Shown piece by piece: positions 15,572 through 53,315 of a stretch of 64,000 bases of DNA (within the stretch, counting starts at the first letter, position 1; each line of letters opens with the position of its first letter). The DNA is from Rhodothermales bacterium (GTDB lineage Bacteria; Bacteroidota; Rhodothermia; Rhodothermales; VXPQ01). The stretch covers positions 886,501 to 950,500 of the forward strand of contig OX638293.1 of NCBI GenBank assembly GCA_951812335.1, written 5' to 3'. The position numbers and the translations under genes are program-made. The notes beneath the pieces are model-generated. The model was given only the letters and a program-made list of their open reading frames with translations. It was not told the origin of the DNA and searched no databases.

Positions 15572-15625
15572 ACATTCCGAACATTCCGAACATTCCGAAC
15601 ATTCCGAACATTCCGAACATTCCGA
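15572..15625. repeat. Six tandem 9-bp units ACATTCCGA
   Basis: Six perfect head-to-tail copies of ACATTCCGA occupy 54 bp just downstream of arsS. The minus-strand frame would read MFG repeats and the plus-strand NIP repeats, but neither belongs to a credible gene. Such perfect arrays are prone to length variation between strains. Confidence 0.9.
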
Positions 15626-15726: not shown

Positions 15727-17418
15727 TTAATCTGAAGTAGGAGCGCTATTTCCATGTACCGCTCCGGATAGCAGTTCAATCACGTCCGGATCGTCCCACT
15801 CCTGACTTCTCGCCCAGTCCAGAGGCGTTTTTCCTTCGTCGTCTTTTGCGTGTACGTCGGCGCCCGCTTCGATCAAAGTGCGGACAACTTCCTCGAAGCT
15901 TCTGTTGGCTGCCCAATGCAGAGGCGTTTTTCCCTCGTCGTCTTTTGCATGTATGTCTGCTCCTGCTTCGATTAGAAGGCAGACAGATTCCGCATCGGCG
16001 CTCTGAACCGCTTCGTGCAGAGGCGTTTTTCCCTTGCCGTCTTTTGCATGTACGTCGGCGCTTGCTTCAATCAGAGGGCGGGTGGCGCGTTCATCGCATA
16101 CCCAGTGCAGAGGCGTTTGGCCCTCGCCGTCTTTTGCGTGTATGTCGGCGCCTGCTTCGATAAGAGTGCGGATAGCGTCTCCGCCTTCTTCCCATGCCAT
16201 TCCGATTTCCCATATGATATTGCCCCCCCAAGCCATTTGGTGCAGAGGCGTTTGGCCCTCGTCGTCTTTTGCGTTTACGTCGGCGCCCGCTTCGATAAAA
16301 ACGCGGAGGACAGATTTATCCCCGGCGTTATGAGCCGCTTGGTACAGAGGCGTTTGGCCCTTGTTGTCTTTCGCATGTACGTCTGCGCCTGCTTCGATCA
16401 AAGCGCGGATAGTTTCCTCCCCGGCGTTCTGAGCCGCTTCGTGCAGAGGTGTTTGGTCCCCGTTTGTTTTTACATGTACGTCTGCGCCCGCTTCGATCAG
16501 AATACGGACAACTTCCGCTCGGTTCGCCCAGGCCGCCGTGTGCAGAGGCGTTCGGGCCCAATTGTCTTTCGCATGTACGTCTGCGCCCGCCTCGATAAGG
16601 ATGCGGATAGATTCTGCATCGACAGTCCCAGCCAAGACATGCAGAGGCGTTTTTCCTCCGTCGTCTTTTGCATGTATGTCTGCTCCTGCTTCGATCAGGA
16701 TGCGGATAGATTCTGCATCGACGCTATTATGCATCCCATGCAGAGGCGTTCGGCCCCAATTGTCTTTCGCATGTACGTCGGCGCCCGTTTCGATCAGAAT
16801 GCGGATGGATTCCGTGTGGGCACTCCAGGCCGCTTTGTGCAGAGGCGTTTGGTCCCCGTTTGTTTTTGCGTGTACGTCCGCCCCCGCTTCGATCAGAACG
16901 CGGATAATCTCCGCCTGGTTCATTGAGGCTGCTTGGTGCAGAGGTGTTTGGCCTTGGTCGTCTTTCGCATGTACGTTGGCGCCCGCTTCGATAAGAACGA
17001 GGATGGATTCCACGTCACTTCCCAAAGCTGCCCGATGCAGAGACGTTCGGTTCTCGTTGTCTTTTGCATGTACATTGACGCCTGCCTCGATAAGAACGCG
17101 GATAGTGTCTTCATTGGCCCCCCATGCACGGTGGGAATCCCGTGAACTAAGATGCAAAGGGTTATTCCATGCTGTGTCTCCTCTGAACGCTTGGTGCAGA
17201 GGCGTTTGGTCCTTTTCGTCTTTTTCGTGTACGTCCGCGCCCGCTTCGATAAGAATGCGGATGGCTTCCAGATTCCTTCCCAAAACCGCCCAGTGCAGAG
17301 GCGTTTCGTCGCGGACGTTTTTTTCGTTTACGTCGGCGCCTGCGTCGATCAGGGCGTGAACAGATTCCGTGTCCTTAATAGCTGCCTGGTGCAGACTCGT
17401 TTCCCTGATTATTCTCAT
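15727..17418 (-). CDS. Ankyrin-repeat protein, about 16 repeats
   Basis: A 563-residue protein built almost wholly from 33-residue ankyrin repeats of consensus TPLHxAA...IRxLIEAGADVHAKDxxGQ. I count fifteen full repeats and a degenerate C-terminal cap (TPLDWARSQEWDD). Repeats 3 and 12 carry insertions of about 12-20 residues. No signal peptide or membrane segment is seen, so it is cytosolic unless exported by a dedicated system. Repeat-to-repeat DNA similarity is high, implying recent internal expansion. Partners are unknown; long ankyrin proteins are frequent in host-associated bacteria. The ATG at 17418 is the first in frame. A 24-codon upstream frame (17449-17375) overlaps its start in another phase. 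Confidence 0.9.
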   Translation of the reverse strand: MRIIRETSLHQAAIKDTESVHALIDAGADVNEKNVRDETPLHWAVLGRNLEAIRILIEAGADVHEKDEKDQTPLHQAFRGDTAWNNPLHLSSRDSHRAWGANEDTIRVLIEAGVNVHAKDNENRTSLHRAALGSDVESILVLIEAGANVHAKDDQGQTPLHQAASMNQAEIIRVLIEAGADVHAKTNGDQTPLHKAAWSAHTESIRILIETGADVHAKDNWGRTPLHGMHNSVDAESIRILIEAGADIHAKDDGGKTPLHVLAGTVDAESIRILIEAGADVHAKDNWARTPLHTAAWANRAEVVRILIEAGADVHVKTNGDQTPLHEAAQNAGEETIRALIEAGADVHAKDNKGQTPLYQAAHNAGDKSVLRVFIEAGADVNAKDDEGQTPLHQMAWGGNIIWEIGMAWEEGGDAIRTLIEAGADIHAKDGEGQTPLHWVCDERATRPLIEASADVHAKDGKGKTPLHEAVQSADAESVCLLIEAGADIHAKDDEGKTPLHWAANRSFEEVVRTLIEAGADVHAKDDEGKTPLDWARSQEWDDPDVIELLSGAVHGNSAPTSD

Positions 17419-25075: not shown

Positions 25076-25564
25076 CTATGCCCAGCGCGCGATTCGTTTT
25101 GCGATTTCTTTTTCGGGCAATCTGCAACGCGGGTGAGCATGGATTGCTCTTAGCCCGGCACACAATACATCCGGATTTGCAACGCCAACTTCGAATATTC
25201 GGTCGAGCAGCCACAGCACCCCATGGCACTCGACTCCTTCTTCGACGGCCAGCGCTCGAAGGGCGCGATCACCCGTCAGTAACTTCCATTCATTTGTTGC
25301 GGCCAGCGCCAGTGCAAACGCGTCCGGTAGGGAAAGAGCCGGTTTTTGTCGTCGATAATGTATGCCTCGGGCAGCTCCATGCCCGTCCATTTTGGCAACG
25401 ATAAGCCCCAGTTCGAGCAGAGCCGGACCGTTGTATGTTTTCAGTTCGAGCTCGTAAAGCACATCCGGGACGACAAATTTGAAGGGTAATCGAAAAGCGG
25501 CCTCCAGAAGCGATCCATGTTCGAGATCGATCAGGACGGAGACATCCGAAACCAGCACCGTCAT
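25076..25564 (-). CDS. PIN-domain protein (putative toxin-like nuclease)
   Basis: 162 residues of the PIN nuclease fold. Acidic positions typical of the active site are visible: VSDVSVLIDLEHG at the N-terminus, LPDAFALALA in the middle and LLTGDRALRALA toward the C-terminus. Related proteins cleave RNA. It starts 5 bp after the stop codon of the XRE-ImmA regulator gene, and the pair probably forms one operon. Whether it acts as a toxin of a toxin-antitoxin pair is inferred from this pairing. Confidence 0.8.
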   Translation of the reverse strand: MTVLVSDVSVLIDLEHGSLLEAAFRLPFKFVVPDVLYELELKTYNGPALLELGLIVAKMDGHGAARGIHYRRQKPALSLPDAFALALAATNEWKLLTGDRALRALAVEEGVECHGVLWLLDRIFEVGVANPDVLCAGLRAIHAHPRCRLPEKEIAKRIARWA

Positions 25565-25569
25565 GATGT

Positions 25570-26652
25570 TTACTCATGCATCGATTTATTTGATGGAGGT
25601 TCTGCCATTTGCCGGTGCAATTCATGCACCGATATGCCGAGCAATTCGGCCGCTTTGGGTTCTGACACCGCATCTTCGGATAAGGCGCGAAAACACAAAC
25701 GTTCGAAACGTTGCGGCTTTTCGCCTTGTAGTTGGTGTGGCTCCTCGTAAGGCGGACTGCGCCAGCCACGACGGGAAAAATCCCGGAAGAGTCTTCGGAA
25801 CAGCGTGTCGTTAAAGACGCCGAGGTCCTTGCACCTGTATGTAAGAGCCTGCACGCTTACGCCGAAAAGGTTCTTGAGGGCGAAAAGCTCGCTGTAGCCT
25901 ATGGAGTGGCGATGCTTGCCTACGGTAGCCCATACCATCTCTGCCGGCATGAGGAATGCCCCTGCAAAGCGATGCGCAGCCTTTTCTTCATCCATGTCAG
26001 GGGCTACATCCAGCATCAGGTGTCCGAGTTCATGGGCAATGGTAAAGCGTTGCCGCTCGCCGCATTCCTGGCCGTTTACGACAATCACGGATACGACATC
26101 CTCGTTTGCCCGGCGTACGCGAGCCGTCAGCCCGGCGATATTATTCGTAAGGTCTATCCACAGCACTTTGATTCCGCGCTCCTCCAAAAGCCCTGTGAGG
26201 TTCGGGACAGGGTCCAGCCCAAGATTCCAGGCGTTGCGCAAAAGATGCGCGGCCCGATCGGCTTCCCATAGATCGTTGGCGACAGGGTAGGGGGCTTCGC
26301 GCGGTTTGTCCCAGTCGAAGCCCGGCAGGCCGAGGATGCTTTTGATCGCAAGGTAGCGTTCAAGGTCGTGCAGGATGGTGGCCTCGACGCGCGCCACTTC
26401 ACGCTTCCTTGTGATTTTCTTTTTGCGAAAATCGATGCTCTCCACCGTCATGTCCTGGGTTCCAATCAGGTAATCCAAAGAGACGTCGAGTGCGGCAGCA
26501 AGGGCAAGGAGGACCTCCGAACCCGGCGTGGTCACATCGCGCTCGTAGTAGCTGATGGCCTGCGCGCTCACGAGGTTTCCGATTTTGTCCGATAGGCCGC
26601 GCAGGGAAAGTCCCGAAGCGGCGCGGGCGATTTTGAGTCGTTGTCCTATCAA
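25570..26652 (-). CDS. XRE-family regulator fused to ImmA/IrrE metallopeptidase
   Basis: 360 residues. An N-terminal helix-turn-helix of the XRE/Cro type (residues 1-65: GQRLKIARAASGLSLRGLSD) is followed by an ImmA/IrrE zinc-peptidase domain with the HExxH motif in FTIAHELGHLMLD (about residue 217). The C-terminus has a helical region, LSEDAVSEPKAAELLGISVH, seen in such proteins. They regulate mobile elements or toxin-antitoxin loci by binding DNA and degrading partners. Start is TTG, chosen because it gives the normal MIGQRLKIAR opening. A 9-bp-arm inverted repeat lies just upstream. Confidence 0.88.
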   Translation of the reverse strand: MIGQRLKIARAASGLSLRGLSDKIGNLVSAQAISYYERDVTTPGSEVLLALAAALDVSLDYLIGTQDMTVESIDFRKKKITRKREVARVEATILHDLERYLAIKSILGLPGFDWDKPREAPYPVANDLWEADRAAHLLRNAWNLGLDPVPNLTGLLEERGIKVLWIDLTNNIAGLTARVRRANEDVVSVIVVNGQECGERQRFTIAHELGHLMLDVAPDMDEEKAAHRFAGAFLMPAEMVWATVGKHRHSIGYSELFALKNLFGVSVQALTYRCKDLGVFNDTLFRRLFRDFSRRGWRSPPYEEPHQLQGEKPQRFERLCFRALSEDAVSEPKAAELLGISVHELHRQMAEPPSNKSMHE

Positions 26653-26745: not shown

Positions 26746-27045
26746 TTACAAATCTGGCATTTTGTTTTTGTATTCGATGCGTTCGGTTTGTTTCGCTATC
26801 GCTCTCGCGATTCGTTCGTCGCGGGGTCCGAACAGTTCACTGCCCAGGAACGCGTATTCGATGCCGCATGCAGCGAGGCGGTTCGCCAGCGTTTCGCGGT
26901 TGAACTGCGGATTGAAGCGGCTGTACGGAGACGAACGGACATCCGCTATTTCCGTTACGCCGTAGCGTTGCAGCAATGCGACGAACGCTTCGCTGTCGTG
27001 CGTGGAATGGCCGATGGTGAAAACCGATGCGCCGGCTGCGTTCAT
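26746..27045 (-). CDS. Truncated DUF488 protein
   Basis: 99 residues with the canonical DUF488 N-terminus ([36 protein letters not shown]) and [11 protein letters not shown]. It ends after [10 protein letters not shown] without the C-terminal Cys/His cluster, so about one third of the usual length is missing. The ATG overlaps the stop codon of the mini three-Cys frame (ATGA). It is either a relic or a minimal form. It is a different, more typical DUF488 than the one at 20416. Confidence 0.65.
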
Positions 27046-27176
27046 ACTTTCGTTTCTGGCAGGTCTTCGGAAAACCGTTCGGCGTAGCAATGATCGCATC
27101 CGGCGCTGACCTTCGTGCAGCCCGTAACCGGGTTCCAGGTGCTGTTCGTCCACTCGATGGCGCTTTTCAGAGACAT
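27042..27176 (-). CDS. Miniature three-Cys-motif peptide (truncated DUF5131)
   Basis: A 44-residue frame nearly identical to the start of the DUF5131 protein at 22676, keeping the whole cysteine motif [17 protein letters not shown] and then ending in SEDLPETKV. The end is created by fusion to the leader of the DUF488 gene, and its TGA overlaps the DUF488 ATG. It could be non-functional debris, but the frame is intact and upstream operator arms are conserved. Confidence 0.5.
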
Positions 27177-27263
27177 AAGGTTCTTTTCAGAATCAGTCGA
27201 GAGGTAAGCGATTGTGTCCGATTCTGGTGAATGTAATAAATATATGTACAATGAACATATATC
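27067..27263. repeat. Direct repeat, copy 2 (5' part of DUF5131 with operator)
   Basis: Second copy of the segment at 22567-22763, same orientation, exactly 4500 bp away. The two copies bracket the IS3 remnant, sigma operon, PIN/XRE pair and truncated DUF488. Confidence 0.85.
27240..27262. promoter_or_regulatory. Inverted-repeat operator, second copy
   Basis: ATATATGT-ACAATGA-ACATATAT, arms identical to those at 22740-22762. The promoter beside it is altered: the -10 position reads CACAAT. Confidence 0.55.
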
Positions 27264-27580
27264 ACAAAGTTTCGGAAAAATAATCAGTACGTCTTCTACT
27301 GCATTTTTTTTAAAAACCGCTCCGGCCCGAAGGATCGTGCGGCGGATAACCGGGACGGTGCGTCGTCCCCTCCTTTAGAACCGCCTCCGGCACATGCTTG
27401 CCTGTCGTCTCGGACAGGCCCCCTTCTTCCCAAACCTTGCATTCAGCCGGAGGCTAACCTTGCATTCAGCCGATGTCCAGACCGGTTTTCTATCCCCGAT
27501 GGCGAGATGCGCGTGGATGTGCGGCTCGCCCAAGAGACTGTCTGGCTGACGCAGCGTCAGACTTAATCAGACGGTTTTCT
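27264..27580. other. Debris region before the DUF4143 ATPase
   Basis: No intact gene. It holds a 23-bp-spaced duplication of AACCTTGCATTCAGCCG (27433-27449 and 27456-27472) and the RhuM relic at 27494-27556. Confidence 0.5.
27494..27556 (+). pseudogene. RhuM-family relic, second copy
   Basis: 63 bp nearly identical to codons of the RhuM remnant at 19866-19923 (DGEMRVDVRL then ETVWLT). No start codon and no continuation. Confidence 0.7.
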
Positions 27581-27668
27581 CTTTCAATCAGTCGCCGGTT
27601 TACTTTCAATTGGTCGGAGGTTGACTTTCAATTGGTCGGAGAATATTTTTCAAATAGTCGCTCGTCCG
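27581..27668 (+). repeat. Four tandem 22-bp repeats upstream of the DUF4143 gene
   Basis: Head-to-tail units beginning CTTTCAATCAGTCG, CTTTCAATTGGTCGGA, CTTTCAATTGGTCGGA and TTTTCAAATAGTCG, at 27581, 27603, 27625 and 27647, end 10 bp before the ATG. The two middle units are almost identical; the outer two are degenerate. A 22-bp period is about two helical turns, so protein bound to each unit would lie on one face, as expected for a cooperative operator. Confidence 0.75.
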
Positions 27669-27678
27669 AAACAGCCGC

Positions 27679-28917
27679 ATGTATCCTCGCTTCGTCAAAC
27701 AGCGGATCAAAGAGGCTCTGGCCGATACCAGAGTGGTGCTGCTCTGCGGCCCCCGACAATCGGGAAAGACCACACTGGCGCGGCAGATCGCGGGCGAGGC
27801 CATCTCCTTCGTTACTCTCGATGACGCCACGACCCTCGACGCCGCCATGGCCGACCCCGTCGGCTTCGTGCGCGAGCTCGATCGAGCAATCATCGACGAG
27901 ATACAACGTGCGCCGAACATCATCCTGGCGATCAAGACTGCCGTGGACGCCGACCCGCGCCCCGGACGGTTCCTTCTCACCGGGTCTGCCAACTTGATGA
28001 CGCTTCCACGCGTTGCGGATTCACTCGCCGGTCGCATGGGAATTACCCGTTTGCTGCCATTGGCCCAGGCAGAGTTGCGCGGCGCGCGGCCGCTCTTCTT
28101 CGACCAGGCGTTTGCGGGGGAGACCCCGACATGCGGAACCGCGGTTGTCGGCGATGACCTTGTGGAGATCGTTCTCGCGGGCGGCTATCCCGAGGCGCTG
28201 ACCCGTTCCGGATGGCGACGACGGCAAGATTGGCACCTGGATTATATCGAGGCGATCATTCAACGCGATGTCCGTGACATTGCCCGGATAGAACAACTGA
28301 GCGCGATGCCGCAGTTACTGCGCATTCTCGCCGAGCATTCCGGGCAACTCGTCAACTACTCCGGATTCGGCGTACCGCTCACTATGAACCATGTTACCAC
28401 GCGCAAATATATAGGAATCCTGGAAAACCTGTTTCTCGTGCACGCCCTGCCGCCCTGGTACGCCAGCGCTCTCAAGCGCATGACGAAGTCCCCGAAACTG
28501 CATTTCCTCGATGCCGGATTGCTGGCGGCGCTTAGAGGTATCACGCCGGATCGCCTGCGCCGCGACCGGACGCCATTTGGAGCGATACTGGAGACCTTCG
28601 TGTTCGGCGAACTTCTCAAGCTCGCGAGTTGGTCCGAGGACCGGTATACATTCTCCCACTTCCGCAGCAAGGAGCGCAATGAGGTCGATATCGTGATCGA
28701 AGACGGGCGCGGGCGGATTGTCGGCATCGAGGTGAAGGCGTCGGCAACGGTCTCCAGAAAAGATTTTTCCGGCATGCGCCGCCTTGCGAATGCTTGCGGC
28801 GACCGATTCGCGCTCGGCCTGGTTTTGTACGACCACGAGCAGGCTGTCCCGTTCGGCGAGCGAATGATTGCCGCACCGATTTCGACGCTGTGGTCGTCGA
28901 TTCGAGGCCACCGGTAG
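27679..28917 (+). CDS. AAA ATPase with DUF4143 domain
   Basis: 412 residues of the COG1373 type: Walker A GPRQSGKTTLA (about 24-34), Walker B RAIIDEIQRAP, sensor-like FLLTGSANLM, then a DUF4143 winged-helix/nuclease-like C-terminal half (FGAILETFVFGELLKL, FSHFRSKERNEVDIVIED, GIEVKASATVSRKDF). The E-x-D-x-V...E-V-K pattern in that half recalls PD-(D/E)XK folds. Members are common singletons in islands and their function is unclear. The start lies directly after four 22-bp repeats. A C-terminal fragment of another family member is at 52834. Confidence 0.88.
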   Translation: MYPRFVKQRIKEALADTRVVLLCGPRQSGKTTLARQIAGEAISFVTLDDATTLDAAMADPVGFVRELDRAIIDEIQRAPNIILAIKTAVDADPRPGRFLLTGSANLMTLPRVADSLAGRMGITRLLPLAQAELRGARPLFFDQAFAGETPTCGTAVVGDDLVEIVLAGGYPEALTRSGWRRRQDWHLDYIEAIIQRDVRDIARIEQLSAMPQLLRILAEHSGQLVNYSGFGVPLTMNHVTTRKYIGILENLFLVHALPPWYASALKRMTKSPKLHFLDAGLLAALRGITPDRLRRDRTPFGAILETFVFGELLKLASWSEDRYTFSHFRSKERNEVDIVIEDGRGRIVGIEVKASATVSRKDFSGMRRLANACGDRFALGLVLYDHEQAVPFGERMIAAPISTLWSSIRGHR

Positions 28918-52833: not shown

Positions 52834-53205
52834 TCAGGGCTGCCAAAGTCCTTCGGCGCAGGCGACGGACAGCCCTGTCGATTCCACCCGTTCGTGCAGG
52901 GGGAAGCAGGTATTTCCCGGGAAGATGACGAAGAGGCGGTCGAGCTTGAGGTCGTCCAATGCCGAGTGCATGGAGCGCGTCATGGCGGGCGTACTGGTGC
53001 GCTTGAATTCAAAGCCGATTCGCTGTCCCTTTTTCATCGTCAAGAGGTCCAGTTCCGCTCCCTGGTGGGTTGCCCAGTAGTAACACTGGTCCCAGGCGAT
53101 ATCCAGTATGCGGGCGATCTCCTGCATTGCGAATCCCTTCCAGGATGCGCCGGACCTGGGGGCCGATGAATCATGAAAATCTAAAATGCCGCTATGGATT
53201 TTCAT
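52834..53205 (-). pseudogene. DUF4143-family ATPase, C-terminal remnant
   Basis: About 120 residues matching the last part of COG1373 proteins: SGASWKGFAMQEIARIL, YYWATHQGAELDLLTMKKGQ, IGFEFKRTSTPAMTRSMHSA and LFVIFPGNTCFPLHERVE. The ATPase half is absent and the frame opens near HSGILDFHDSSAPR. A relic of a second member of the family found intact at 27679. Confidence 0.7.
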
Positions 53206-53315
53206 GGTTGAAATGCATTTTCGGGGTCGGAATACGTATCCCTCTTTTATTATACGCAATATATGCGGTGAATAAATCTGCGCTCTGGGTCTGGATCGGC
53301 CGGTGTATGCTTACA

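Follow-up and report, generated by a model that had tools for sequence, protein, structure and literature searches.

What purpose does a regular array of short direct repeats serve immediately in front of a DUF4143 ATPase gene, and which protein reads it? The question is raised by a 64,000-nucleotide (nt) stretch of a Rhodothermales bacterium (GenBank assembly GCA_951812335.1, contig OX638293.1, positions 886,501 to 950,500 of the forward strand; hereafter the window). Here a sequence-only reading had pointed to four tandem repeats and proposed that they are kept by selection for protein binding, the binder being perhaps the ATPase (via its winged helix) or a different regulator. The gene belongs to PDC-S01, a widespread phage-defence candidate. 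The analysis below suggests that this very common and so far unexplained ATPase-nuclease gene carries promoter repeats that appear to be read by its own product. That is, in sequence comparisons the repeats and the protein change together across bacteria, and the repeats are probably an operator array, made up of predicted binding sites for the DUF4143/PDC-S01 protein encoded directly downstream.

In the passages available to us, PDC-S01 ranks fourth in abundance among the defences of prokaryotes (29 494 bacterial and 9986 archaeal systems) and is described as an ATPase fused to a PD-(D/E)XK member, validation being still pending for most PDCs (PMC12988326). A Thermus relative, TT_P0211 (AAA_14, DUF4143), shows altered expression when plasmid DNA is present, according to the part seen of PMC4406477. 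No link between DUF4143 and upstream tandem repeats was found in the literature searched, and the PDC-S01 passages seen there describe neither a cis-element nor self-recognition; this literature excluded bioRxiv and held few subscription papers.

The window array and its downstream gene

The array consists of four 22-nt units (27581-27602, 27603-27624, 27625-27646 and 27647-27668) with start-to-start distances of 22, 22 and 22. Its final unit ends at 27668, which leaves a gap of 10 base pairs (bp) before the ATG of the DUF4143 gene at 27679, so that the coordinates confirm the original description of four 22-bp repeats stopping 10 bp from the start codon. The span then given, 27581-27678, takes in this 10-bp gap. 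Tandem Repeats Finder gave the array scores of 87 and 69, and the self-match at lag 22 reached 34, against a maximum of 16 over lags 15-40 in 20 first-order Markov copies of the window.

Each unit holds a 14-bp core, all on the + strand: TTTCAATCAGTCGC at 27582-27595, TTTCAATTGGTCGG at both 27604-27617 and 27626-27639, and TTTCAAATAGTCGC at 27648-27661, ending 17 bp 5′ of the ATG. The outer units had been taken for degenerate, which is wrong: all four keep TTTCAA and GTCG exactly, the motif TTTCAA-N3-GTCG being identical in 4/4 units. Variation is confined to positions 7-9 and 14, which are also the least conserved core positions in the 22-bp arrays of the family.

The downstream gene (27679-28917, +) encodes a protein of 412 amino acids in which Pfam, PADLOC, AlphaFold2 and fold searches point to an AAA_14 ATPase, a winged helix (DUF4143) and a PD-(D/E)XK nuclease domain. 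Pfam matched PF13635 (DUF4143) with 154 bits and PF13173 (AAA_14) with 85 bits, both over their cut-offs, and PADLOC assigned the protein to PDC-S01 (PDLC04790, E 2.1e-173); nSTAND3 scored 22.7 bits, under its cut-off of 27.2, and NCBIfam profiles gave no match to the window protein. With AAA_14 followed by DUF4143, the protein is, by its sequence, a member of the PDC-S01/DUF4143 ATPase family. In the AlphaFold2 model (82-sequence alignment, predicted local distance difference test score 94.1), the winged helix comprises a helix at residues 227-234 and then a recognition helix at 238-250; further on are a strand at 273-276 and a hairpin formed by strands 324-329 and 335-341. Folded alone, the C-terminal domain resembles PD-(D/E)XK nucleases, among them Can2 and McrC; a sequence search of the PDB with the C-terminal profile gave just one weak match, Card1 (E 0.11). 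The ATPase and nuclease motifs are intact across the family: Walker K30, D73 and E74 are invariant in 226/226 relatives, as are D337 and K353, and E351 is present in 222/226. By its modelled core fold and the conserved motif D337 ... E351-x-K353 (28687-28737, +), the protein falls within the PD-(D/E)XK superfamily, and nuclease activity is predicted.

Comparable arrays precede most close relatives

Relatives were gathered from genome searches, genome contigs, viral contigs and fetched regions. From 275 loci, 270 had a match, 255 were usable (15 being dropped for partial N-termini, short upstream regions or low score), 232 remained after removal at 95% identity and 226 encoded full-length proteins. 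The upstream 150 bp of each were scored for self-match. A score of at least 12 was obtained for 146 of the 232 upstream regions, with the best lag at 22 in 64 cases, at 23 in 56 and at 44-46 in 17; the same score occurred in 3/232 shuffled, 3/232 within-gene, 12/224 downstream and 7/186 far-upstream controls. Mean scores were 10.7 at lag 22, 10.0 at lag 23 and about 7 at lags 44 and 46, and did not exceed 4.2 at the remaining lags. At a score of at least 9, an array with a lag of exactly 22 or 23 precedes the gene in 156/226 relatives. When the score was set to at least 10, the same two lags were found in 135 of the 180 relatives at least 35% identical to the window protein (11/13 at 60% identity or more, then 29/39 and 77/103, and 18/25 at 35-40%), in 6/25 at 30-35% and in 5/21 below 30%; other lag pairs reached this score in 0.7%. 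Examination of the regions upstream of other DUF4143 genes, which the sequence-only reading had put forward as a check, thus revealed comparable arrays before most homologs.

The arrays are widely distributed. They are present in 47 of the 63 named genome-contig loci of the set, which include Proteobacteria, Acidobacteria, Verrucomicrobia, a Chitinophagales member, Turneriella, Calditrichota, Actinobacteria and Uhrbacteria. The window genome itself has eight DUF4143 matches, three of which show four units by eye, with a different unit in each. The gene is also found on plasmids (175 records) and in a few viral contigs (18), and phage records gave three distant matches. Units were seen by eye in four plasmid relatives picked from the 175, those of R. 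etli CFN 42, A. fabrum, Salipiger and Sulfitobacter, with lag-22 scores of 11, 12, 29 and 29, respectively. On the Sulfitobacter plasmid, the genes directly after PDC-S01 and its array encode a restriction endonuclease and the Qat anti-phage system (QatA). DUF234 ATPases, considered as an outgroup, were present in just 6/148 genomes.

Relatives without an array often have a different element. A strong inverted repeat lies in the last 100 bp upstream of 38 of the 70 array-less relatives, compared with 7 after shuffling and 3 within the gene. In several distant relatives (L037, L038, L257, L262, L267, L269, L274 and others), a long inverted repeat adjoining the start codon replaces the direct repeats; for TT_P0211 of Thermus thermophilus HB27, inspection by eye likewise revealed no array but an inverted repeat located at the start codon.

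Across the family, arrays have 2-6 units, mostly 3-4, and each unit is composed of a 14-bp asymmetric core and a spacer of 8 bp (22-bp class) or 9 bp (23-bp class). Identity between the copies of an array is 0.56-0.91 at core positions 1-13 and 0.29-0.49 at spacer positions. Between orthologs that are 70-95% identical (138 pairs), it averages 0.75 in the core and 0.43 in the spacer. That cores are kept between copies and spacers are not supports selection for protein binding, as first proposed. Palindromic units showed no excess in a test that may be poor, and although GTGG...CCAC can be seen by eye in some relatives, no claim is made.

Repeats and protein change together

Co-variation was analysed in the 109 of the 156 arrays that fit the main core, 47 arrays with other cores being excluded. 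Unit similarity tracks protein identity (Mantel r 0.435, 0/300 permutations), and the best 15-residue predictor of unit similarity is the segment of residues 321-335 (partial r 0.34). For individual bases, residue 239 ranks highest for both base 2 and base 3 (partial r 0.54 and 0.51, respectively). It is the second residue in the recognition helix (V239 in the window protein, codon 28393-28395, +); N237 and P233 also score well for base 2. The leading residue is 331 for base 9 and 328 for base 11. K331 (codon 28669-28671, +), which co-varies with bases 9-11, lies beside the catalytic motif, in the turn that joins strands 324-329 and 335-341. More generally, bases 9-14 change with residues 328-332, next to the nuclease active site, which suggests a second predicted contact, a loop of the nuclease domain, that the sequence-only reading had not foreseen.

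The associations take the form of a residue code. At bases 2-3, K239 goes with CC (30/34), P239 with T at base 2 (26/26), V239 with TT (10/12), N239 with GA (7/8), A239 with AG (5/5), and E239 and Q239 with G (6/9) and A (5/5) at base 3, respectively. On the 3′ side, K331 goes with G at base 10 (57/58) and R331-D332 with GC at bases 10-11 (13/13). The window fits this code, combining V239 with TT and K331-E332 with G at base 10 and T at base 11.

Shared ancestry was addressed with a tree built without the tested regions, on which 357 columns were ranked by the coincidence of changes. Residue 239 came first of the 357 for bases 2-3 (phi 0.48; mean 0.046, standard deviation 0.083), 16 of its 23 changes coinciding with changes at these bases, and K331 came first for bases 9 and 11 and S330 for bases 12 and 14. 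The register of the units was also set independently, using a mask that ignores bases 2-4 and 9-11. The register was unchanged in 101/109 arrays, and V239 was again first for bases 2-3, K331 for base 9 and bases 10-11, and F328 for base 11.

Furthermore, the rules were fixed before relatives were fetched from two further phyla. This hold-out comprised 42 loci, 41 of them usable and 38 less than 95% identical to the old set, with arrays in 30. The rule for residue 239 held in 20 of 24 cases (shuffled mean 12.7; reached in 0/2000 shuffles, and in 1/2000 in a repeat) and that for residue 331 in 14 of 15 (shuffled mean 11.4; 22/2000).

Promoter overlap and predicted regulation

Promoters were judged from consensus only. 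A sigma-70-like promoter matching at 9/12 positions lies within the window array (27621-27649, +), with TTGACT at 27621-27626 and TATTTT at 27644-27649 separated by 17 nt, so that the third core sits between the −35-like and −10-like hexamers. The search found this one promoter, against a shuffle mean of 0.2. In the 22-bp class, the best promoter score is 7.85, compared with 7.22 when spacer letters are shuffled. By consensus, then, the repeated sites overlap the gene's own promoter, clearly so in the 22-bp class and weakly in the 23-bp class. The starts of the promoter hexamers are 22-24 bp apart, close to the array period, which may explain that period.

Since the array overlaps the promoter, the gene would be self-regulated, and probably self-repressed. 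In the mechanism that we propose, each unit would bind one protomer of the downstream protein, with the recognition helix (residues 237-239) reading the 5′ part of the core and the nuclease-domain loop (328-332) reading the 3′ part, the units being spaced about two helical turns apart. With the promoter enclosed by the array, units in their bound state would keep RNA polymerase away, so that the protein would act as a repressor of its own expression. We infer that the protein binds directly, with a single protomer on each unit, that the regulation is negative and that phage attack relieves it. As the predicted contact adjoins the nuclease active site, the array may also double as a docking or nicking site.

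If the array is an operator of this kind, it names the likely DNA target of PDC-S01 in most relatives more than 35% identical to the window protein, it yields point predictions of which residue change should shift which base, and it offers a reporter for the trigger of the system. It also constitutes a natural data set of a protein-DNA recognition code that has diverged many times. A bolder and rather doubtful extension is that PDC-S01 would be a self-targeting guard, an ATPase-nuclease held on a private promoter array through its winged helix and nuclease-side loop as a lineage-specific lock and key; phage interference with the DNA or with the ATP state would release the protein, derepress the gene and free or arm the nuclease. 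Were this true, tens of thousands of natural variants would make up a readable DNA-recognition code.

A number of observations weigh against the proposed operator array. Discovery of the residue code and its first test relied on the same 109 arrays. In the hold-out, the rule for residue 275 held in 16/22 cases against 16.0 after shuffling, a comparison that had no power. Among the 20 hold-out arrays with under 70% identity to the first set, the other two rules pointed in the same direction and neither was significant (residue 239, 11/15 against 9.3, 267/2000; residue 331, 6/7 against 5.1, 285/2000). On the tree, base 4, base 10 and base 3 taken singly have their highest-ranking columns outside the proposed contacts. 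With the independent register, groups of contact residues mostly did not rise above the rest, the hairpin for base 11 being the sole contact group to do so (p 0.005). About one quarter of the relatives more than 35% identical have no detectable array, and in the 23-bp class a promoter score of 7.92 against 7.58 after shuffling is weak evidence of overlap.

Separately, no claim is made for an association between H275 and base 4, which stood out strongly in the first set but for which the hold-out had no power.

Alternative explanations

Instead of being an operator, the array could serve a mobile cassette as its recombination, integration or homing site, or be a target that the nuclease cleaves. 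The gene does occur on plasmids and in a few viral contigs as noted above, a probable truncated second copy adjoins the intact window gene, and the nuclease motif is invariant and has beside it the loop whose changes go with those in the 3′ half of the unit. The downstream 150 bp, however, are near background, so there is no second array at the other end. Moreover, at the 109 loci 283 core matches fall within the array region and 13 elsewhere across 478 kb (2 for a reversed-core control), and the array overlaps promoter-like hexamers. Taken together, these results make a mobile or cleavage site improbable.

Alternatively, the units could be sites for a separate regulator of the host or of a defence island. 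Small dedicated repressors acting on direct repeats are known in defence islands, e.g. RptR, as far as the excerpt seen of PMC12255303 tells. An HTH_3/Peptidase_M78 protein is also encoded in the region around the window array. Against this, unit sequence tracks the adjacent protein across phyla, and within the ATPase the co-variation is strongest in the winged helix and the nuclease loop. Units of same-genome paralogs (n=20 pairs) are no more alike than protein identity predicts (−0.02, standard error 0.21). That is, the unit sequence drifts with the adjacent protein and not with the host genome, and a separate regulator seems very improbable. A host-wide regulon was considered and rejected: with at most one mismatch, TTTCAATTGGTCGG occurs twice in the 2.69-Mb window genome, as cores 2 and 3 of the array, and 15 of the 18 matches to the pattern TTTCAATYNGTCGG in 8 genomes lie in arrays, base 9 being C or T in each of the three others. 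The predicted reader favoured here is the ATPase itself, through its winged helix as originally suggested, because bases 2-3 co-vary with residue 239 and same-genome paralogs do not share units.

An element working at the RNA level, as a leader structure or through binding of a protein to the mRNA, deserves hardly any credence. The last units may fall in the 5′ leader if transcription starts within the array, and unit orientation is fixed; against these points, structure in the window is not beyond that of shuffles (z +1.30), Rfam gave no match, and the co-variation involves a DNA-type recognition helix. A functionless tandem duplication can be practically dismissed, for although slippage generates tandem arrays, cores are conserved and spacers poorly so, both between copies and between orthologs, and only lags 22, 23 and their multiples stand out.

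Neighbourhood of the array

Just upstream, an orphan array of two CTTGCATTCAGCCG units at 23-bp spacing (27436-27472, +), overlooked in the sequence-only reading, runs into an ATG at 27473 that opens a reading frame beginning MSRPVFYPRW. Similarity to PDC-S01 extends over about ten codons (to 27502) and is then lost. Because an intact relative (L200) has the same layout, with the core joined directly to the ATG of a protein that begins MAATDFYPR, we read the orphan array as what is left of a second PDC-S01 gene, truncated and belonging to the 23-bp class; arrays can thus help to spot truncated PDC-S01 copies. The short frames that come after this start codon gave no Pfam match; one of them, DGEMRVDVRLAQETVWLTQRQ, resembles a RhuM-type remnant.

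Another DUF4143 gene is present as a C-terminal fragment at 52834-53259 (−; PF13635, 30.7 bits). The HTH_3/Peptidase_M78 protein and a directly following frame of 162 amino acids lie at 25076-26652 (−); the latter, without a Pfam match, is presumably PIN-like. Between this pair and the array are a DUF488 protein and an N-terminal fragment of a DUF5131 protein (26746-27251, −). Elsewhere in the window, the 9-mer ACATTCCGA occurs in six perfect tandem copies at 15572-15625, and a frame of 563 amino acids at 15727-17418 (−) consists mostly of 99-bp (33-codon) tandem repeats, which are ankyrin-like from their period only.

Comparison with known systems

Tn7-like transposon ends carry repeat arrays at both ends, an arrangement that PDC-S01 loci do not show. 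In the ATPase and winged-helix part of the protein, the nearest folds include the archaeal STAND-like proteins SSO1545 (2fna; VIA Z 14.3, root-mean-square deviation (rmsd) 4.5, 250 residues aligned) and PAB2304 (2qen; VIA Z 15.3, rmsd 4.9, 254 aligned), and also plant NLR and CED-4 ATPases. The 2fna and 2qen alignments stop at model residue 286-287 and leave the nuclease domain uncovered. The model of the C-terminal domain, for its part, resembles Can2 (8q41; Foldseek E 3.3e-4, VIA Z 9.4, rmsd 3.2, 116 aligned) and McrC (McrBC, 6hz4 chain N; Z 9.2, rmsd 2.7, 105 aligned). Unlike Can2 and McrC, PDC-S01 has neither a CARF domain nor a separate McrB partner, and its ATPase, winged helix and predicted nuclease form one polypeptide.

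In the layout of its promoter, PDC-S01 is reminiscent of RptR, which, in the portion of PMC12255303 available, is described as a repressor encoded downstream of direct repeats that lie in its own promoter over the −10 box. RptR, however, is a dedicated repressor of 9 kDa whose 9-bp repeats contain the palindrome TAGCTA, whereas the predicted binder in PDC-S01 is the ATPase-nuclease itself, on 22- or 23-bp units that diverge across the family.
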